Below are positions 7,534-64,000 of a DNA stretch of 64,000 nucleotides, piece by piece. The stretch comes from Microbacterium invictum (GTDB taxonomy: Bacteria; Actinomycetota; Actinomycetes; Actinomycetales; Microbacteriaceae). Made by a program: the position numbers and the translations under genes. How positions within the stretch are numbered: position 1 is the stretch's first letter; each line of letters starts with the position of its first letter. Where the stretch lies: positions 2,108,001 through 2,172,000 of the forward strand of contig NZ_JACIFH010000001.1 of assembly GCF_014197265.1 (NCBI RefSeq), given 5' to 3'. The notes beneath the pieces are model-generated. The model made no database searches and was not told the origin of the DNA. It worked only from the letters and a program-made list of their open reading frames with translations.

Positions 7534-9201
7534 ATGGAACCCATGCCGCTCGAGACCCGTCCCGCCGCCGCGACCCCGCTCCTGCAGGTCCGCGACATGG
7601 CCGTCGACTTCCGCACGCTCGAGGGCCCCGTGCACGCGGTCGAGGGCGTCGACCTCGAGATCGCCCCGGGCGAGACCGTCGCGATCGTGGGTGAATCCGG
7701 CTCGGGCAAGTCGACCACCGCGATGGCGATCATCGGCCTGCTGCCCGGCAACGGCAAGATCGTGCGCGGCAGCGTCACCCTCGACGGCCAGGAATTGGTC
7801 GGGGCGGCTGAGCCGGCGATGCGCAAGATCCGCGGCCGCATGATCGGGCTCGTCCCGCAGGACCCGATGTCGAACCTGAACCCGGTCTCGAAGATCGGCA
7901 CCCAGGTCGCCGAGACCCTGCTCGCCCACGGCCTGGCCACCCGGAAGGACGTCGACCGCAAGGTCGTCGAGACCCTCGCCGCCGCCGGGCTCCCCGATGC
8001 CGCCGAGCGCGCCAAGCAGTACCCGCACGAGTTCTCCGGCGGCATGCGCCAGCGCGCGCTCATCGCGATCGGTCTGGCCTGCAACCCGCGCCTGCTCATC
8101 GCCGACGAGCCCACCAGCGCCCTCGACGTCACGGTGCAGAAGACGATCCTCGACCAGCTCGGCCGCATGACGACCGACACCGGCACCTCGGTCCTGCTGA
8201 TCACGCACGACCTGGGCCTGGCCGCCGAGCGCGCGGCGCGCGTCATCGTGATGCATCGCGGCCGCATCGTCGAGCAGGGACCCGCACGCCAGATCCTCGA
8301 GGATCCCCAGCACGCGTACACGCAGTCCCTCGTCAAGGCGGCCCCGTCGGTGGCGGCGGCGCGCCTGCGACCCGAAGCATTCGAGAAGGTGGATGCCGCG
8401 GCATCCACCCCCACCGACAACATCGTCGAGGTCGAGAACCTCACCAAGATCTACAAGATCCGGGGCAAGAAGGAGGACTTCGCGGCCGTCAAGGACGTGT
8501 CCTTCGCGATCCCGCGCGGGAAGACCGTCGCGATCGTCGGCGAGTCGGGCTCGGGCAAGACCACCACCGCCCGGATGCTGCTGAAGGTCATCGAGCCGAC
8601 CGAGGGCGCGATGCGCTTCGAGGGCCAGGACGTCGCGGGGCTGAAGGGCAAGGCGCTGCGCGATTTCCGCCAGAAGGTGCAGCCGATCTTCCAGGACCCG
8701 TACTCGTCGCTGAACCCGATGTTCACGATCGAGCGGCTCATCGCCGAGCCCCTCGACTTCTACAGCCGCGGGTCGTCCAAGGAGCGCGCGGCGCGCGTGC
8801 GCAAGCTGCTCGACGACGTCGCCCTGCCGCAGACGATGCTGCGTCGCTACCCCGCCGAACTGTCGGGCGGTCAGCGTCAGCGCGTCGCGATCGCCCGCGC
8901 CCTCGCTCTGAACCCCGACCTGATCGTGTGCGACGAGCCGGTCTCGGCGCTGGACGTGCTGGTGCAGGACCAGATCCTCACGCTGCTGCGCGACCTGCAG
9001 AGCGAATACGGGCTGAGCTACCTGTTCATCTCGCACGACCTCGCCGTCGTCCGCCTGATCTCGGACTACGTGTGCGTCATGAAGGACGGCGCCCTCGTGG
9101 AGGCGGCGACCAGCGAGGAGATCTTCACCAACCCGCGCGACCCGTACACGCGCAAGCTCCTGGCCTCGATTCCGGGCAACGAACTGGATATCGCCGTCTG
9201 A
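7534..9201 (+). CDS. Dipeptide/oligopeptide ABC transporter, two fused ATPase domains (DppD-DppF type)
   Basis: This 555-residue cytoplasmic protein powers an oligopeptide-family importer. The first nucleotide-binding domain has Walker A GESGSGKS (about 53-60), signature FSGGMRQR (about 167) and Walker B LLIADEPTSALD. The second has GESGSGKT (about 335), LSGGQRQR (about 443) and DLIVCDEPVSALD. Each half carries the C-terminal extension typical of DppD and DppF. The linker codons 8390-8409 contain a 20-base palindrome seen again at 25384. The ATG at 7534 follows GAGGAGGCAG. The matching permeases and binding protein lie downstream on the opposite strand, so the transporter is split into two convergent units. 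Confidence 0.93.
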   Translation: MEPMPLETRPAAATPLLQVRDMAVDFRTLEGPVHAVEGVDLEIAPGETVAIVGESGSGKSTTAMAIIGLLPGNGKIVRGSVTLDGQELVGAAEPAMRKIRGRMIGLVPQDPMSNLNPVSKIGTQVAETLLAHGLATRKDVDRKVVETLAAAGLPDAAERAKQYPHEFSGGMRQRALIAIGLACNPRLLIADEPTSALDVTVQKTILDQLGRMTTDTGTSVLLITHDLGLAAERAARVIVMHRGRIVEQGPARQILEDPQHAYTQSLVKAAPSVAAARLRPEAFEKVDAAASTPTDNIVEVENLTKIYKIRGKKEDFAAVKDVSFAIPRGKTVAIVGESGSGKTTTARMLLKVIEPTEGAMRFEGQDVAGLKGKALRDFRQKVQPIFQDPYSSLNPMFTIERLIAEPLDFYSRGSSKERAARVRKLLDDVALPQTMLRRYPAELSGGQRQRVAIARALALNPDLIVCDEPVSALDVLVQDQILTLLRDLQSEYGLSYLFISHDLAVVRLISDYVCVMKDGALVEAATSEEIFTNPRDPYTRKLLASIPGNELDIAV

Positions 9202-9241
9202 GGATGGATGCCGGGTTCTCCCCCGCCCAACACACGTCGCC

Positions 9242-9411
9242 CGAGATGGCCACTTGTGTCACGAGATGGCCACACGCGCGCCGAGATGGCCACTCGTGTC
9301 ACGAGATGGCCACACGCCCGTCGAGATGGCCACTCGTGTCACGAGATGGTGGGCCACCTCGGCGCGGGAACGGCCACCTCGGCGCGGGAACGGCCACCTC
9401 GGCGCGGGGCG
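9242..9411. repeat. 20-base-period inverted repeat array between convergent transporter genes
   Basis: From 9242, five units beginning CGAGATGGCCAC recur every 20 bases, alternating two tails (near TCGTGTCA and ACGCGCGC). A sixth, partial unit runs into three units of GGCCACCTCGGCGCGGGAAC (9352-9411). The second set is close to the reverse complement of the first (CGAGGTGGCC against CGAGATGGCC), so the whole array can fold on itself. It lies between two converging gene ends, as expected for a bidirectional terminator, but it is far longer than a terminator needs. The GGCCACCTCGGCG core recurs at 16121-16240. Confidence 0.9.
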
Positions 9412-9427
9412 CGGGGCGCGGCGCGGC

Positions 9428-10387
9428 TCAGCGGGCGCGGGTGCGCGGGTCCATAGCCTCGCGCAGTGCCTCGCCGAACAGGGTGAAGCCGAGCGCGGTG
9501 ACGGAGATGCAGATACCCGGCAGGAACGCGAGCCACGGGGCGATCGCCAGGTCGGCCTGCGCGTAGGTGAGCATGCGGCCCCACTCGGCCGTCTCGGGGC
9601 GTCCGCCGCCGAGGCCGAGGAACGACAGCGCGGCCGCGTCGATGACGGCCGTCGCCAGCGACAAGGTGCCCTGCACGATGACGGGGCCGATGGCGTTGGG
9701 CAGCACGTGGCTCATCGTGATCTTGCCGCGACCGAGCCCGAGTGTCTGCGCCGACAGGACGTAGTCGGCCGAGCGCTGCTGGAGCATCGAGGCGCGCAGC
9801 AGCCGCGCGAAGATCGGCACCTGCGCGACACCGACGGCGATCATGATGGCCATAGGCGACTGACCGAGGATCGCGGCGATCGACACGGCCAGCAGCAGGC
9901 TCGGCACCGACAGCAGGATGTCGACGACGCGCATCACGAAGTTGTCGACCGCACCGCCGAAAGCCCCGGCGATCAGGCCGAGCAGCATGCCGCCGGCCAG
10001 TCCGAATGCGGTCGAGACCACACCGATCATGAGGGAGGCCCGCGCACCCCAGATCAGTTTGGAGAGCACGTCGCCGCCGAAGCGGTCGAGGCCCAGCGGG
10101 AACTGCGGCAGCTCGCCCGGACCGGGGATGTGTGTCGGGGTGATGTACTTCGCGCCGGGCAGCGCCAGTTCGGGGTACGGGGCCAGCCAGGGAGCGAACA
10201 CGGCGACGAAGACGAACACCGCCACGATCGCGGCACCGATCCATGCGGTGGGATTGCGCCGCAGACGCCGGAACGTGTCGCGCCAGAAGCCGCCGCCCGA
10301 CCCCGCGGACAGCATCTCCTTGTCGATGATCGCGGTGTCGTCGACCGGGCCGCCGCTGGGGGCAGGAGGAAGAACGGAAGAGCTCAC
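9428..10387 (-). CDS. Dipeptide-type ABC transporter permease (DppC-like)
   Basis: This 319-residue membrane protein has about six transmembrane segments. The N-terminal region holds FWRDTFRRLRRNPTAWIGAAIV, and the cytoplasmic coupling loop near SADYVLSAQTLGLGRGKITMSHVLPN is the EAA-type motif of DppC permeases. The GTG/ATG region overlaps the end of the upstream permease by four bases, indicating translational coupling. It is the last gene of a binding protein, DppB, DppC unit. The ATPase lies across the repeat array on the other strand. Substrate is not readable from sequence; small peptides are the family default. Confidence 0.92.
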   Translation of the reverse strand: MSSSVLPPAPSGGPVDDTAIIDKEMLSAGSGGGFWRDTFRRLRRNPTAWIGAAIVAVFVFVAVFAPWLAPYPELALPGAKYITPTHIPGPGELPQFPLGLDRFGGDVLSKLIWGARASLMIGVVSTAFGLAGGMLLGLIAGAFGGAVDNFVMRVVDILLSVPSLLLAVSIAAILGQSPMAIMIAVGVAQVPIFARLLRASMLQQRSADYVLSAQTLGLGRGKITMSHVLPNAIGPVIVQGTLSLATAVIDAAALSFLGLGGGRPETAEWGRMLTYAQADLAIAPWLAFLPGICISVTALGFTLFGEALREAMDPRTRAR

Positions 10388-58070: not shown

Positions 58071-58880
58071 ATGGCGGGCCGAGCGAAGCAGGGAAAGTCG
58101 CGCGACGCGCACGGCGGCCGTGGCGCGGGGAGCAGGTCGGCACCTGGCGCAGCCAAGAAGCCGGCCCCCGGCACCGCCGGCAAGGGAAAGAAACCGGCAT
58201 CCGCCGCCGCCAAGAAGACGTCCGACGCGAAGGCACCGGCATCCACGCACCGGACGAAGAACGCTCCGGTGCCACCCGCGCCGCCGGCCGGACCCTTTCG
58301 CCTCGGGGCGATCGCCGGCGCGACGCCGGGCAAGTGGATCGACACGTGGCATGAGCGGATGCCGGGTGTGGAGCTGCGGCTGATCCCCCTGGCCGGCCAC
58401 GAGCAGGCCGATGCCCTCATCGCCGACGAGGTGGATGCCGCTCTCGTGCGCCTGCCCGTCGACCCGGACGGGCTGCACACGATCGTGCTGTACGACGAGG
58501 TGCCGGTCGTGGTGTGTTCCGCGGACTCCCATCTGACGGCCGCCGATGAACTCGTGCTCGCAGACCTCGCGGGCGAGATCGTGATCACCCCCCGCGACGA
58601 CGTGCTGCACACCGACGTTGCGGGGGCGCTGGCGCCGAAGTTCGACGCCCCCGAGACGACCGAGGACGCCGTGGCGACGGTTGCGGCGGGTGTCGGCGTC
58701 GTGATCGTGCCCATGTCGCTCGCCCGCCTGCATCACCGCAAGGATGTCGCGCACCGTCCGCTCACCGATGGTCCCCTGTCGACGGTCGCGCTGGCGTGGC
58801 CGAGCGCACGGTCGAACGCACACGTGGAGGCGTTCATCGGCATCGTGCGCGGACGCACGGCGAACTCGTCGCGGGCCTGA
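58071..58880 (+). CDS. Solo LysR-type effector-binding domain with a basic N-terminal tail
   Basis: In this 269-residue protein, residues 1-75 are Lys/Ala/Pro/Gly-rich and probably disordered (KKPAPGTAGKGKKPASAAAKK), like a histone-H1-type nucleic-acid-binding tail. Residues 77-265 match a LysR substrate-binding domain (FRLGAIAGATPGKWIDTWHERMPGVELRL, DAALVRLPVD, VVVCSADSHL, VAAGVGVVIVPMSLARL). The LysR helix-turn-helix is missing. TACGCT lies six bases before the ATG, so it is probably leaderless. It could bind a small ligand and DNA or another protein; the role is unknown. Confidence 0.8.
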   Translation: MAGRAKQGKSRDAHGGRGAGSRSAPGAAKKPAPGTAGKGKKPASAAAKKTSDAKAPASTHRTKNAPVPPAPPAGPFRLGAIAGATPGKWIDTWHERMPGVELRLIPLAGHEQADALIADEVDAALVRLPVDPDGLHTIVLYDEVPVVVCSADSHLTAADELVLADLAGEIVITPRDDVLHTDVAGALAPKFDAPETTEDAVATVAAGVGVVIVPMSLARLHHRKDVAHRPLTDGPLSTVALAWPSARSNAHVEAFIGIVRGRTANSSRA

Positions 58881-59189
58881 CGACCACGGCGCGGGCGTGA
58901 TGCCGGCCTGACACGGTCCGGCCGGTCCCCGGGCTCCTCCCCAGAAGCCCGGGACCGTGACCCCTCCCCAGAGGTCCGGACCGGGGCCGGTGGCGTCCCC
59001 ACGATCCACCGACCCCTTCGGACCGGCCTGCACCCCCCGGTGGCCGTCCGCAGTAGAACAGCGGCCACACTGCCCCAGCCAGGCGACCCCCAATAACGTG
59101 ACCTCCCACCCGATCTTCCGAGTGGAGTGCCGTTCTATGTGTCAAGAGCGCACCCCGGGCAGGGTGATACATGCCAGATGAAGAACTTC
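58881..59189. other. Gap between converging genes with hairpins; no gene seen
   Basis: This 309-base stretch separates the LysR-like gene (plus) and the CHAT gene (minus). It holds a terminator-like hairpin at 58923, then an imperfect direct repeat of CCTCCCCAGAAGCCCGGGACCG as CCTCCCCAGAGGTCCGGACCGG, then GGTCCGGACC. On the minus strand a TTGACA box occurs near 59147, without a good -10. A frame opening at 59093 on minus is Gly/Trp-rich and lacks family resemblance; I do not call it a gene. Confidence 0.6.
58923..58957. terminator. Strong GC hairpin after the LysR-like gene
   Basis: CGGTCCCCGGGCT (58923-58935) pairs with AGCCCGGGACCG (58946-58957) with one bulged C, across a 10-base loop. 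It lies 43 bases past the stop codon at 58880 and could terminate transcription from either side of this convergent gap. Confidence 0.7.
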
Positions 59190-61673
59190 TCAGAATCCGG
59201 CGCCGTGCACCTGGAACGGGGCGACGATCCCGGTGCGCTCGGTCGCGTCGGCGAGCGCCTCGGCGGGAGATGTTCCCGCGGCAAGGCCTTCGTGCATCGC
59301 CCCCAGCAGCTCGCAGGCATCGTCGTCGGCGACGACAACGGGCGCGGCGATGACGCAGCGCGCGCCGGCGTGCAACCACGCCCGTGTCATGCCGATCGCC
59401 TCTTCACCCCACCGCACCGCGGATCGGCCGACCTCGCACGCCGACAGCACGACGGTGGTGGGCACGCGCGGCATGCGATCGATGTCGTAGCCGAACAGCA
59501 CGCCGTCGGCCAGTTCGAGACCCGAGAAGAGCGGGTTGTCGGCGGTGTGGCGACCGTGGGCTGAGATGTGCAGGACATCGACCGCGCCGACCATGCCGGT
59601 GACGCCGTCGATCGTCGAGTCGGCTCCGTGCCGGATCTCCGGCTGGGTCCTCTGCCAGGCGGATGCTGCGGTCGTGACTTCCTCGATGCCGCGGGCTACG
59701 CGCGGGCCGACCGCGAAGCCTGCTGTGCGGAGCGTGAGAGGTGTGCGCCGGCGCGCCCAGCGCGACGCCGAGACAGCGTGGGTGGTGACTCGGCCCCGCA
59801 GATCCGGCAGCATGCTCCATGGCACGCCGGCGAGGACGCCGGGGGTCGTGATCAGCAGCCGCCGGGCGGCCGTGCGAGCGGTGACCGGCTCGAGGAGGAG
59901 ACGCGACAGCGACGCGAGGCGGGCGTCGAGCGAGCGGCGGATGACGTCGGCCATCGGTCCGGAGCGCACCGATGCCGAGAGGTCGAGGTCCGAGCGGAGC
60001 CCGGGCAGGAGCGTGTGCGCCTCGGACCAGCCCGGCAGGTCCACCACCTCGGCGCACCCCGCGCCGGCGACCACGCATCGCATTCCGTGCGGACTGAACA
60101 CGAACGACAGGGCGGCCGTGTCGGCGTCGAGCAGCCGCTGCAGCCCGGACAGGTCGACGCGGTCTCCCCCGTCGGGAGCGTCGGTCGCCGCGACGCTCGC
60201 CCACTGCCGCTCGCGCACGAGTTCGCCCAGCTCGGCAGCGCGCGGATCGCTGAGCCATGAGTCGGCGGGCAGTTCGGCGCGCAGCGTGCGCAGCTCGGCG
60301 AGCCGCCGGGCGAGCTCGGGGTCGGGCGGTGGGCGCAGCGGCACCACCTGCTGGCTGAGCAGACGCGCCCGCTCGGACCACTCGAACATCGCGGCGGGAT
60401 CGCCGGTGTCGACCGCGGCGGCCAGTCCCGCGCCGAGCAGGCCGTTGCCGTGCATCGCGAGAGAGGTCTGCAGGTCGAGACTGCCGAACGAATGCGACCA
60501 CGTGGTGAGTTCATCGAGGCCGCGGGCGGCGGCACGGCGCGCCTGGGTGGGGGTCGCGGCACGTGCGGCGCGGACCTCGTAAGCCAGCAGACGCACCTCG
60601 AGCGGGGCAGATCGCCGCAGCCGTGGGAGCGGTGTGCCATCGTCGCGGCCGTGGCGCACCCGCCACAGGATGTGGGTCAGGCGCAGTGCCATCGCATCGC
60701 CCCAGAGTCCGTGGCCATCGAGCTCGGCGGCCAGGCCCCCGACGGTGTCGGCGTCGGGCACGCGTCGCGCGGCGGGGGTCACGCGACCCGAGCGGTCGAC
60801 TGTCCCTCCCGCCAGCAGCGCCCGGGCCCGGATGCCGGCGGCGCGTGCGCGCCACAACGCGCCTTCCAGCTGCGAGAACCGCCGTTCGGCCGCCGCAGCG
60901 ACCTTCGCGGCACGTGCAGGGTCGTGACGCAGCAGGGACCGGGCCAAGTTGAGCTCGGACTCGGCCTGGGCCTGCCGCATCCGCCGCGCGCCGAAGACGT
61001 GGATGGCCGCCTCCAGCAGGCGCTCGGCCTCGGTGGTGAGCCCGGCGTCGCGCAGCACCTCGGCACGGTCGACGTCGCCTATCGCGGTGTGGACGTCGGA
61101 CTCGCCGGCCATGACCTTGCGCGCGCTGACCATGTGCCCGAGTGCCCCGACCAGGTCGCCCTCGAGCAGCAGGATGTAGCCGAGATTGTGCTCGGCGACC
61201 GCGGCGGAGTCGGGGTCGGCATCTTCCTCGTAGTCGGCGATCGCGCGGTCGAGATCGCCGCGGGCGGCCGCGAGCTCGCCCAGCTGCATGTGGGCGACGC
61301 TGCGGTTCAGGTACATGCGGGCCCGACGACCCGAGGACTCGGGCATGGCGTCGATGCCACTGGTGAGGCTGCTGACCGCCCCGGAGGGATTGCCTCGGTT
61401 CAGTGCGATCAGTCCCAGCTGGCCTTGGAGGATGGCCGTCGTCTGAGCGGAGATGCCGTCGAGTGCGAGTGCGTCGCGGCACAGCGATTCGGCGCTGTCG
61501 GGTGCGCCGTCGTGTGAGGCGAGGAAGGCCCGCGTTCCCGCGATGCGCGCCCGGAGGTCAGGGTCGACGGCCCGCGCAGCGCCGGACGTGAGCGCACGCC
61601 GGGCGGCGCCGAAGCGTCCGGCGTTGACGTGCTCGAGGCCACGAGTGTAGAGCTCCTCGGCCGATAGGGTCAC
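59190..61673 (-). CDS. TPR-repeat protein with C-terminal CHAT (caspase-like) protease domain
   Basis: In this 827-residue protein, the first 400 or so residues are helical repeats of TPR type (YTRGLEHVNAGRFGAARRAL, ILQGQLGLIALNRGNPSGAVSSL, AEHNLGYILLLEGDLVGALGHM). The last 270 form a CHAT peptidase domain with LLITTPGVLAGVPWSMLPD, catalytic His 706 in LHISAHGRH and Cys 746 in VVLSACEVG, so it looks active. CHAT proteases are caspase relatives used in bacterial immunity and programmed death, with the TPR part receiving the signal. The GTG at 61673 begins TLSAEELYTRGL. It lies 104 bases after an S8 protease gene on the same strand. Confidence 0.92.
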   Translation of the reverse strand: MTLSAEELYTRGLEHVNAGRFGAARRALTSGAARAVDPDLRARIAGTRAFLASHDGAPDSAESLCRDALALDGISAQTTAILQGQLGLIALNRGNPSGAVSSLTSGIDAMPESSGRRARMYLNRSVAHMQLGELAAARGDLDRAIADYEEDADPDSAAVAEHNLGYILLLEGDLVGALGHMVSARKVMAGESDVHTAIGDVDRAEVLRDAGLTTEAERLLEAAIHVFGARRMRQAQAESELNLARSLLRHDPARAAKVAAAAERRFSQLEGALWRARAAGIRARALLAGGTVDRSGRVTPAARRVPDADTVGGLAAELDGHGLWGDAMALRLTHILWRVRHGRDDGTPLPRLRRSAPLEVRLLAYEVRAARAATPTQARRAAARGLDELTTWSHSFGSLDLQTSLAMHGNGLLGAGLAAAVDTGDPAAMFEWSERARLLSQQVVPLRPPPDPELARRLAELRTLRAELPADSWLSDPRAAELGELVRERQWASVAATDAPDGGDRVDLSGLQRLLDADTAALSFVFSPHGMRCVVAGAGCAEVVDLPGWSEAHTLLPGLRSDLDLSASVRSGPMADVIRRSLDARLASLSRLLLEPVTARTAARRLLITTPGVLAGVPWSMLPDLRGRVTTHAVSASRWARRRTPLTLRTAGFAVGPRVARGIEEVTTAASAWQRTQPEIRHGADSTIDGVTGMVGAVDVLHISAHGRHTADNPLFSGLELADGVLFGYDIDRMPRVPTTVVLSACEVGRSAVRWGEEAIGMTRAWLHAGARCVIAAPVVVADDDACELLGAMHEGLAAGTSPAEALADATERTGIVAPFQVHGAGF

Positions 61674-61726
61674 CCATACAGCATGCCGTGCCGCGCGACC
61701 CGATGGGCGCATCACTGCTCACCGGT

Positions 61727-61755
61727 TCTCCGCGGTGCCTTCGTGGCCGCGGAGA
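61727..61755. terminator. Perfect hairpin between the S8 protease and CHAT genes
   Basis: TCTCCGCGG (61727-61735) pairs perfectly with CCGCGGAGA (61747-61755) across TGCCTTCGTGG. It sits in the only sizeable gap inside this operon. It may partly terminate or process the transcript, lowering or uncoupling CHAT expression relative to the S8 protease. Confidence 0.6.
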
Positions 61756-61777
61756 CCGCTGCAGCGGACTGGTCGAC

Positions 61778-63475
61778 TCAGACGGCCGGGAGCACCTCCT
61801 CCGCCACCGCCGCCGTCACCGCGGCGTCGACCTCGTCGACGTTCGAGATGATCGCGCGGCCCTCTTCGACGTGCGGGCGCAGGCGCGCGGCGACCCGTCC
61901 GGCGACCAGCGGCGCGGCGAACGAGGTGCCGCTCCACACCGCGAACCCGCCGCGGTAGTCGTCGGGGTCGATCGTCTGCCGCAGCAGGCCGTATTCATCG
62001 TGCCGGGCTGTGGCCTGCACGCCGCCCAGGAAGTCGGGCATCGTGCTGACGATCCCCGCCCCGGTCGCGTAAGTCCCCACCCACGGGCCGACGTTCGAGA
62101 ACAGCGCCGTCGAGCGGCGACTCGGATTGAGTGCGCCGACCGACAGGTGCCGCGCGTAGTCGTCGGGTTCGATGCCGTTCCCGGAGTCGGGCCATGCCCA
62201 CAGCGAAGCCGGGAACGCGGGCCGGTCGATGGCGTCGTTTCCGGCCGAAGCGACCACGACGGTGCCCAGCGCACGCAGCGCCGTGAGCAGGTCGTGCAGA
62301 TGCTTGCTGTAAAGGCCGTCCTCGGGCGTCTCGTGGTAGTAGCTGAGCGACAGACTCAGCACATCCACGGCCCGGCCGTCGTCCCGTCCCGAGCGGTAGC
62401 GGAAGACGAGGATCGCGAGGTCCTCGAGAATCTGCAGCAGGGAGGACTCGGTGACGATGCCGAGGCCATCGGCCACCCGGATCGCGAGCAGATCGGCATC
62501 CGGTGCCACCTGACGCACGATGCCGGCGATGAACGTGCCGTGCCCGGCCACCGGATCGATCTCACCGTCGAGCGGACCGTACAAGTCGGGGTAGAGCTCC
62601 GGGTTGGCGTCGTCGGTGAGCCCCAGTGGCCGGCCGTCGAGTTCGACGTGACGATCGACGATGTCGTCGGGCAGCCAGTCATGCACACCCGCACCGGTGT
62701 CGAGGATCGCCACCACCGGACGACGCTCGCCCTTGCGCAGCGGTGTGCGCAGGGGCGCGGGCCCCACCCACGCCACCGGCTGCCGTCCGCCGCACCCGGC
62801 CTGGCCGTACTCGCTGACCGGGTTCGACTTCGTGTAGGGATTGGACTTCGTATACGGGTTGGACTTCGTATACGGGTTGCTCTGGGTGAAGGGGTTCGTC
62901 TGCGTGAACGGGTTCACCCCGATCGGGTCGATCGACACGATGTGGTCGAGCCCGATGCGGTCGACGCCGGCCTTGCGGAGTGCGGTGCCCACATCTTCTC
63001 GGCGCAGACCACGGATGTCGGATCCGAGCGCTTCGCGCCGTATGCGCTGCAGGACCCGCCACGCGTCGGGCAGTGCCGGCGACTCCGTCGACGCCGAGTC
63101 CTCGGGGATCAGCTCGACGCGCAGCACGGGAGCGGCGCCGGGCACGATGTCCTGGTCGAGCTCGGACTCGTCCTTGGGGTCGAGTCGGGCGCCGCTCAGC
63201 CGCTCACGTTCGATGCCCCAGCCGAACGACCGCGCCGCCTCCTTGATGCGCTCGACGTTGTCGTGCAGGCGCACGGCGCTGTGCGTGCCGTCCTCGCCCG
63301 CTCCCGAGACGAGCAGCCGGTTCGGCACATAGGCCGTCGGGAACACCCGCATCGGGCCGAGCGGATCGGTATCGGGATCGAGCACCACCCCGGTGGTGAC
63401 CGAGCCACGTGCCCGGTCCTTCCACGACCATCCCTCCGGCTGCGGCATCGCCTTCCCGCCACCCACTACGGCCAT
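61778..63475 (-). CDS. Intracellular S8 (subtilisin-family) serine protease with repeat linker
   Basis: This 565-residue protease has a complete triad: Asp 259 in VAILDTGAG, His 312 in AGHGTFIAGI and Ser 518 in WSGTSFAAP. There is no signal peptide or membrane segment, so it should act inside the cell. Residues 1-185 form a separate N-terminal region (MRVFPTAYVPNRLLVSGAG, ALRKAGVDRIGLDHIVSIDP), perhaps an inhibitory or sensing domain. It is joined to the catalytic domain by five six-residue repeats (NPYTKS). GGGGAG precedes the ATG at 63475. It lies between a beta-rich protein gene and the CHAT gene, all on one strand. Confidence 0.93.
   Translation of the reverse strand: MAVVGGGKAMPQPEGWSWKDRARGSVTTGVVLDPDTDPLGPMRVFPTAYVPNRLLVSGAGEDGTHSAVRLHDNVERIKEAARSFGWGIERERLSGARLDPKDESELDQDIVPGAAPVLRVELIPEDSASTESPALPDAWRVLQRIRREALGSDIRGLRREDVGTALRKAGVDRIGLDHIVSIDPIGVNPFTQTNPFTQSNPYTKSNPYTKSNPYTKSNPVSEYGQAGCGGRQPVAWVGPAPLRTPLRKGERRPVVAILDTGAGVHDWLPDDIVDRHVELDGRPLGLTDDANPELYPDLYGPLDGEIDPVAGHGTFIAGIVRQVAPDADLLAIRVADGLGIVTESSLLQILEDLAILVFRYRSGRDDGRAVDVLSLSLSYYHETPEDGLYSKHLHDLLTALRALGTVVVASAGNDAIDRPAFPASLWAWPDSGNGIEPDDYARHLSVGALNPSRRSTALFSNVGPWVGTYATGAGIVSTMPDFLGGVQATARHDEYGLLRQTIDPDDYRGGFAVWSGTSFAAPLVAGRVAARLRPHVEEGRAIISNVDEVDAAVTAAVAEEVLPAV
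62829..62925 (-). repeat. 18-base coding repeat giving an NPYTKS hexapeptide linker
   Basis: Five 18-base units encode NPFTQT, NPFTQS and three times NPYTKS (about residues 185-215), between the N-terminal region and the protease domain. The Asn-Pro/Lys-Ser pattern is exposed and regular, as expected for a flexible or cleavable linker. Confidence 0.9.
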
Positions 63476-63542
63476 CGTCTTCTCCCCTTTCGGCCGCGCG
63501 GTGCGGCCTGTCCGTCATCGCGCGCCCGTCAGGGCGTCGGCG

Positions 63543-64000
63543 TCACACTTCGAAGTGCGGTGTCACCAGATCGCCGGCGGCACCGGCATCCGTCGTCGCA
63601 TCGAGCACGACACGCAACCGCACGAGCCCCTTGGCGACATCCTCGAACGCGAACCGTCCACCGTCGCAGACCACCGTCTGCTCGCCGTCTTCGCGGATGA
63701 GCACGACCGACGTCGCCGGTCCGTCCACCCAGCCGTCGATGCGATGGCCCCCGGCCTCGCTCTCGGTGAGATGGATCAGCACGTTCGTGGTGCCGTCGCT
63801 GAACTGCAGCGTGAGCGTGTCGGCATCGCCGCGGACGGCGGCACCGGCATCCACCTCGACCAGCGTCAGCAGGGCGTACTCCTGGGCGAGATCGTCCGCG
63901 GCGACGGCGGCGACCATGCGGTCGACCAGGTCGACGGGCAGCGGATCGACCGTCTCCCAGGTGTGCCGCAGGGCACGGAACAGTGCGGCGTCCGATGCCG
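63543..64000 (-). CDS. Beta-rich protein of the CHAT/S8 operon, cut by window edge
   Basis: The frame runs off the window end; 152 or so C-terminal residues are visible. A helical part (ALFRALRHTWETVDPLPVDLVDRMVAAV) is followed by beta strands (LTLQFSDGTTNVLIHLTESEAGGHRIDGWVDGP, VVLIREDGEQTVVCDGGRFAFEDVAKGLVRLRVVL) like a small immunoglobulin- or carboxypeptidase-regulatory-type sandwich. I recognise no named family. It ends 67 bases before the S8 protease start and is certainly in the same unit. An internal ATG at 63917 is probably not the true start, since the open frame and helical region continue upstream. Confidence 0.72.
   Translation of the reverse strand, partial: ASDAALFRALRHTWETVDPLPVDLVDRMVAAVAADDLAQEYALLTLVEVDAGAAVRGDADTLTLQFSDGTTNVLIHLTESEAGGHRIDGWVDGPATSVVLIREDGEQTVVCDGGRFAFEDVAKGLVRLRVVLDATTDAGAAGDLVTPHFEV

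Follow-up and report, generated by a model that had tools for sequence, protein, structure and literature searches.

A conserved sigma-protease operon in Microbacterium, its paired promoter-like sites and a candidate RNA: a putative proteolytic sigma switch

Two described systems come close to the locus reported here. ECF54, a group of extracytoplasmic function (ECF) sigma factors (Huang 2015; Casas-Pastor 2021; as cited in PMC8999054), has a conserved context of carboxypeptidase, subtilase and CHAT proteins, for which passages of PMC8999054 propose regulation by proteolysis. In the Csx29-Csx30-CASP-sigma system, a TPR-CHAT protease frees an ECF-type sigma factor by cutting its inhibitor (PMC10028731). 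We analysed a 64,000-nucleotide (nt) stretch of Microbacterium invictum DNA (the window; G000:C1:2108001-2172000 of a 3.58 Mb host genome whose close relatives are mostly Microbacterium). At its end, an original prediction had placed three co-directional genes encoding a beta-rich protein (here X), an S8 subtilisin-type protease and a TPR-CHAT protease. All three are present on the minus strand, and they are the 3' part of a conserved four-gene operon headed by an ECF sigma gene. The neighbourhood is known from ECF54, and its parts are of known kinds; the prediction's remark that the mechanism is undescribed needs qualifying to that extent, as regulation by proteolysis has been proposed. It did not include the hexapeptide array, the two promoter-like sites and the RNA described below, of which we found no mention in the literature searched, which left out primary ECF54 papers that may describe some of them. 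With confidence a little short of even, we favour the reading of this locus as a proteolytic sigma switch, cytoplasmic and self-contained, with an RNA output beyond its own operon.

The first gene lies past the window end, on the minus strand at window-equivalent 64653-64006 (window numbering continued into the DNA beyond 64000, stretch L004), where an upstream sigma factor had been guessed. Its product matches Pfam Sigma70_r2 (E 1.4e-8) and NCBIfam sigma70-ECF (61 bits, cut-off 42.9), and its 3' end overlaps the start of X. The beta-rich protein exists as predicted, although its window copy (63543..64000) is truncated by the window end; the full gene, of 157 amino acids (aa), starts at window-equivalent 64016. 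S8 (61778..63475, 565 aa) matches Pfam Peptidase_S8 over residues 252-530 (E 3.6e-18) and has the triad D259/H312/S518 that was predicted, as well as the oxyanion residue N413, all four invariant in an alignment of 32 sequences that includes the host. The TPR-CHAT cysteine protease (59190..61715) matches Pfam CHAT (E 2.4e-26) and carries TPR repeats; the dyad read earlier as His706/Cys746 is intact and corresponds to H720/C760 in the longer 841-aa frame (alternative GTG start 61673). Each of these two residues is kept in 71 of the 71 rows that reach its column in an alignment of 78 rows. Loss of catalytic residues in most homologues, of either protease, was not seen. Judged by eye, neither S8 nor CHAT has an evident secretion signal.

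A scan with one genome per species found 323 stretches encoding an S8 relative; because only the best 80 were kept, these are the closest loci, mostly Microbacterium. In 69 of the 80, sigma, X, S8 and CHAT follow in this order on one strand with gaps below 600 nt (CHAT is cut by a contig end in 4 of these), so the conserved neighbourhood that the original prediction expected is there. Five loci are variants: L050 and L087 have wide gaps between the operon genes, L053 carries sigma-X on the opposite strand, a second S8 copy sits in the gap in L101, and CHAT precedes S8 in L102. A gene is missing in 6 of the 80, which a contig end explains in 5; L066 alone has the room yet lacks CHAT beside S8. 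In L050, the match to CHAT is confined to its C-terminal part, corresponding to host residues 359-841, in a 461-aa frame (L050:4094-5542) that is shortened or broken. Among 23 genomes of the genus, host included, the system is all-or-none bar one X at a contig end: the same 15 genomes have both S8 and CHAT, 14 of them also have X (the single genome without it has a contig end adjoining), and the other 8 have none of the three. Fifteen further genomes of the order gave matches, some weak, to S8 (4), X (3) and CHAT (6). Among 396 genomes of the phylum, genus relatives included, the S8 profile matched at least 9 (E <= 1e-30, 3 candidates scored per genome) and the X profile at least 18 (9 candidates scored per genome), both lower bounds.

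We also compared 20 loci from outside the genus, every one picked via an S8 or X match. All four families occur within the stretch in 12 of them, in shuffled orders. Sigma-X stands without S8 within 5.5-8 kb in L150, L151, L152 and L156; L154 has X only, L157 lacks S8, L125 lacks X, and L126 has S8 and CHAT only. L120 and L121 hold duplicated modules, with 2 or 3 X copies, 2 S8, 2 CHAT and one sigma. Within the 69 ordered loci, the sigma-X gap is -4 nt in 35 and -11 nt in 15 (start codons picked by script). Partial correlations of distances, computed without species-tree control, are 0.51 for sigma-X and -0.10 and -0.07 for X-S8. Comparison of these sequences shows sigma, X, S8 and TPR-CHAT as one co-inherited operon, in which sigma and X are the tightest pair.

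The predicted structure of X has two N-terminal helices (residues 6-23 and 30-48) and a beta-sandwich with strands from 67 to 151 (mean predicted local distance difference test score, pLDDT, 82.5). Weak CarboxypepD_reg matches in 11 of 28 X members (best E 9.6e-4) probably explain the 'carboxypeptidase' of the ECF54 description. A look-up of anti-sigma families in Pfam and NCBIfam gave none above chance, FecR appearing in 2 of the 28 members at a best E of 0.073, and the structure search covered mainly residues 65-157. The published ECF54 proposal, stated from the same neighbourhood (PMC8999054), is that the proteases target sigma directly and hold the system in an off state with no anti-sigma factor, in which case X is not one. 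We consider this improbable here, since sigma and X overlap and stay joined even where the proteases are not adjacent. Such overlap and persistent pairing are a habit of sigma/anti-sigma pairs. A sigma factor driving the genes for its own destroyers would amount to a self-limiting pulse, which is possible.

To a similar degree, we doubt that X is an inhibitor or chaperone of S8 whose link to sigma is co-expression only. By analogy, Bacillus IPI, reported to inhibit the intracellular subtilisin Isp1, is Ig-like (PMC3901451), and X is a predicted beta-sandwich adjoining an S8 protease that lacks an evident signal peptide; since copies of X adjoin S8-CHAT without a sigma of their own in L120 and L121, X may serve the proteases. 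The four loci with sigma-X and no nearby S8 argue the other way, as do the near-zero X-S8 correlations beside that of sigma-X and the absence of any inhibitor family among the Pfam matches of X.

In sequence comparison, a promoter-like site stands before the first gene and, in most relatives, again after the last, ahead of a candidate structured RNA. In the host, the first site lies past the window end (window-equivalent 64697-64671) and the second, TGTATCA-N16-CTC, at 59146..59171, beginning 19 nt past the last base of the CHAT stop codon; both are on the minus strand. Searching for.GTATCA-N15-18-CT[CA] in 95 sigma-upstream regions (host, 76 loci and 18 distant ones) recovered the motif in 79, with a spacer of 16 in 65 and of 17 in 14. 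Where S8 comes first (L117, L118, L119, L123), the motif is upstream of S8 and paired with a divergent copy, and it also precedes S8 genes that stand apart from sigma (L102, L120, L127, L155). Of the 69 loci with enough sequence after the CHAT stop codon, 62 have a second site of the TGTATCA-N16/17-CTC type 5-74 nt beyond it. A limit of 600 nt brings the count to 64 by adding L084, where the distance is 241 nt, and L094, where it is 458 nt and the CHAT frame is shortened. Distant L153, L157 and L158 have the motif after the last gene of the unit, while the 80 loci hold just 11 matches elsewhere in 2.54 Mb of both strands.

Genome-wide, we searched the host for the exact TGTATCA form. There were two matches with N16, one of them within a coding gene, and one with N17, against 5 and 1 for reversed-pattern controls; the two plausible sites are those before sigma and after CHAT. 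An N16 match occurs in 73 of 99 genus genomes, and at least 26 genomes, among the rows listed, have a same-strand pair of sites 5.1-7.0 kb apart, roughly the operon length. L043, L072, L076 and L084 yielded no standard form of the motif before sigma and have no RNA behind CHAT, which may reflect a change in sigma specificity. In L118, a divergent promoter-like site precedes a gene (L118:8375-9952, plus strand) whose product resembles trypsin by eye and carries PVTRDP..CW repeats in its C-terminal part; this gene may also belong to the sigma regulon of that family.

The candidate non-coding RNA of the host occupies 58983..59145 on the minus strand and closes with a terminator-like hairpin (59016-58983). 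Behind the second site, we saw no recurring small open reading frame among the 9 sequences listed and no Rfam family at gathering score in 7 loci; this G-rich RNA may represent a new family. In a set of 65 sequences (host and 64 loci, L043 and L084 left out), GGGG runs number 3.75 per sequence versus 2.73 in shuffles and are more exposed (mean unpaired 0.49 versus 0.33), and in 62 the fold is more stable than the 4-shuffle mean, the average advantage being 10 kcal/mol. We counted covariation in one related clade of 18, which does not include the host copy: five drawn helices hold 43 compensated cells, compared with 16.5 in shuffles and 6-9 in slid versions, strongest in the CUGGGGAG hairpin and the terminator. 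The covariance model R1 matched 43 of 92 sources on the expected strand at E <= 0.01, 18 of the 43 being its training set, and gave 3 short opposite-strand rows. Its matches in another clade (L092, L098, L100, L104, L160; E 3.5e-5 to 0.009) start no more than 2 nt from the expected base. Of the 99 genus genomes, R1 matched 15 at E <= 2.6e-14, some possibly of the same species as training loci, and one weakly; the promoter-like motif ends at the base before the match in at least 14 of the 15 (the 15th is G487).

Could this RNA be merely the 3' end or terminator region of the operon, with a stray promoter as the second site? It adjoins CHAT, ends in a terminator-like hairpin and is weakly supported in the host. 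We nevertheless find this quite unlikely, given the promoter-like site immediately in front of the RNA, the four helices drawn ahead of the terminator, of which three show changes on both sides of the helix (1, 2 and 5 pairs), and the exposure of the GGGG runs beyond shuffles; moreover, the RNA lies about 3.8 kb after CHAT in L086 and about 7.7 kb in G001. By eye, the second site of L043 is followed not by an RNA but by a second X-like gene (L043:12312-12640), and another gene stands in place of the RNA behind that of L084. The host also has a 6C RNA (Rfam RF01066, 51.7 bits) at G000:C1:244169-244249, with C runs at its would-be hairpin loops by eye. Its CCCCCCAAT is, again by eye, complementary to ATTGGGGG of the candidate RNA, which could be chance between G-rich and C-rich loops.

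From about residue 45-51 onward, the fold predicted for S8 can be aligned to those of PCSK9 and of pro-subtilisins before processing; its N-terminal part is therefore most likely a prodomain (predicted at about residues 45-182), although a Pfam scan of S8 matched no prodomain family; pLDDT is low across the array described next and across parts of the catalytic domain. Between the predicted prodomain and the catalytic domain lie tandem hexapeptides in 3-9 copies, in the host at residues 188-219 (NPFTQT NPFTQS, NPYTKS three times, NP; 62819..62914, minus strand). Pro-subtilisins are processed at the position that corresponds to this array. Throughout the 80 Microbacterium-type loci the units begin NP[FY] (NPFTRT, NPFSRT, NPYTKS, NPYGST and others), whereas other families have HPFWVG, HPFWGG, PFTSGG, HPMYDG, NPGYQG, NPAYQG or GYGDGV, the last an example without Pro. 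Further relatives show the five-residue units NPFTG, NPFKG and MTPFG, or NPVGGK and NPHGMT, and the array is degenerate or absent in 6 of 17 distant S8 frames. Each of L120 and L121 retains a paralogous S8 pair with unlike units, HPMYDG or HPLYDG versus PFTSGG. In L101, tandem S8 paralogues (L101:6292-7938 and 7935-9584) share one operon and have units NPFTRT and NPFGKT.

We compared codons in 92 arrays of period 6 (host, 80 loci and 11 distant ones; mostly close relatives and hence not 92 independent cases). Over 655 unit pairs there are 1278 silent differences versus 42 changing ones, and as all 42 fall in 7 arrays, 16 of them in the host itself, the full units are identical in 85 of the 92. 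At the sequence level, the peptide is kept constant while its codons drift, a clear example of selection that keeps repeats alike. A neutral replication-slippage product in a linker would fit the variable copy number, the differences in unit from protein to protein and the 76 of 655 pairs identical at the DNA level; we regard it as very unlikely, as an unselected product would accumulate amino-acid changes too. At the place that corresponds to the array, intracellular subtilisins carry an inhibitory Pro-[Tyr/Phe/His] that lies across the active site (PMC6220982); the likeness of the units to it is a lead by analogy.

A two-protease death or defence cascade, in which mutual activation of CHAT and S8 would kill or arrest the cell while sigma did no more than express them, would suit a predicted zymogen-like S8 and the fact that one CRISPR immune system employs a TPR-CHAT protease (PMC10028731), but we give it scant credence, as the ordered operon is limited to four genes, without an effector next to them (flanking genes were not surveyed), the exact motif in the host points to the operon and RNA only, and PADLOC models run against the host's four proteins matched S8 alone, through generic subtilase and IetS similarity (best E 7.6e-7).

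For the proteolytic sigma switch that we prefer, we can outline how the parts might work together. Sigma would drive its own operon and the RNA, and X, presumably translationally coupled to sigma, would restrain it as a soluble anti-sigma factor or holding partner. S8 would be produced as a latent zymogen, with tandem hexapeptides at the prodomain junction acting as pseudo-substrates or processing sites. Once the TPR part of CHAT had read a signal, X would be cleaved, either directly or via S8 opened at the array, and the freed sigma would amplify the operon and make the RNA as an output or feedback element. One protease may activate the other, as the original prediction supposed. In the TPR-CHAT/Csx30/CASP-sigma system the protease frees sigma by cutting an inhibitor (PMC10028731), and such a logic would suit the present locus, with X as inhibitor and S8 as second latent protease. 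It is tempting to go further and speculate, with considerable doubt, that ECF54 loci are five-part RNA-producing protease switches in which a TPR-CHAT/latent-subtilisin relay frees sigma, a hairpin RNA with CUGGGG-type loops is the dedicated output, and the hexapeptide array is an evolvable private recognition code, as two paralogous modules in one genome keep different units (L120, L121). If so, the hairpin RNA might act by titrating 6C RNA or another C-rich RNA, or could bind back to TPR-CHAT as a ligand, by analogy with target RNA in Craspase.

Several observations weigh against such a switch. The X copies without their own sigma have been mentioned, as has the missing species-tree control of the distance correlations. 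In many genomes the motif count does not exceed that of the reversed-pattern control (host 2 versus 5), so the evidence from the motif rests on position. Six loci (L043, L053, L070, L072, L076, L084) have the four genes without RNA behind CHAT, and, in one of five helix-count measures, further pair types show no excess (28 versus 28.3). R1 does not recover the host copy of the RNA at E <= 1. The fold of this copy surpasses shuffles by a modest margin (z -2.05; 7 of 200 shuffles did as well), and its terminator-like hairpin has no T run; its support comes from position, the promoter-like site, G-runs and this modest fold.

Convergent to the RNA, a plus-strand gene at 58071-58880 of the window has by eye the look of a LysR-type ligand-binding domain, with a Lys/Ala/Pro-rich N-terminus where the DNA-binding domain would stand. 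The host genome also has repetitive DNA at L004:9270-9660, with the peptide reading ..GGHSYREVAALTARWPLLP...

How, then, does this locus compare with what has been described? Like 6C RNA, the candidate RNA would be a small structured RNA of Actinobacteria; it is G-rich and, at gathering score in 7 loci, outside the Rfam families. X resembles IPI in being a small all-beta protein paired with an intracellular subtilisin, and differs in its two N-terminal helices, its pairing with a sigma gene and the lack of an inhibitor family among its Pfam matches. LIPY/F intracellular subtilisins carry [LVI]-[IFLV]-P-[YFH] in a pro-peptide of 16-20 residues (PMC6220982). S8 likewise shows no evident signal peptide, and its NP[FY] units in the Microbacterium-type loci recall that element, but it lacks the defining motif: an N-P-[FY] array follows a longer N-terminal domain, predicted to be a full prodomain, the element is repeated 3-9 times with no Leu-Ile ahead of Pro, and other relatives carry NPVGGK, NPHGMT, MTPFG or the Pro-less GYGDGV.

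The likeness to type III-E is one of architecture: TPR and CHAT with a His/Cys dyad, a locus joining a TPR-CHAT protease, an ECF-type sigma and a sigma inhibitor (here putatively X), and a sigma-binding motif within the CASP-sigma locus itself (PMC10028731). In contrast, none of the operon's four genes is a CRISPR effector or Cas7-11 (no search with a Cas7-11 model was made), a second protease, S8, is present, X has 157 aa where Csx30 has 565 residues (PMC10028731), and the host CHAT scores at chance level with the Csx29 model (9.7 bits, cut-off 300; E 0.34). If the switch exists as we propose, TPR-CHAT proteases can release a sigma factor outside CRISPR as well, with RNA as a possible output. 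With ECF54, the host operon shares ECF-type sigma domains and the neighbourhood of subtilase, CHAT and carboxypeptidase-annotated genes, the group being assigned by context rather than by a group profile; here the 'carboxypeptidase' is probably X, which looks like a CarboxypepD_reg-type beta-sandwich rather than a peptidase and overlaps sigma. Our analysis turns this neighbourhood into a testable circuit with a putative promoter, a predicted regulon of very small size, a candidate RNA and a peptide array.

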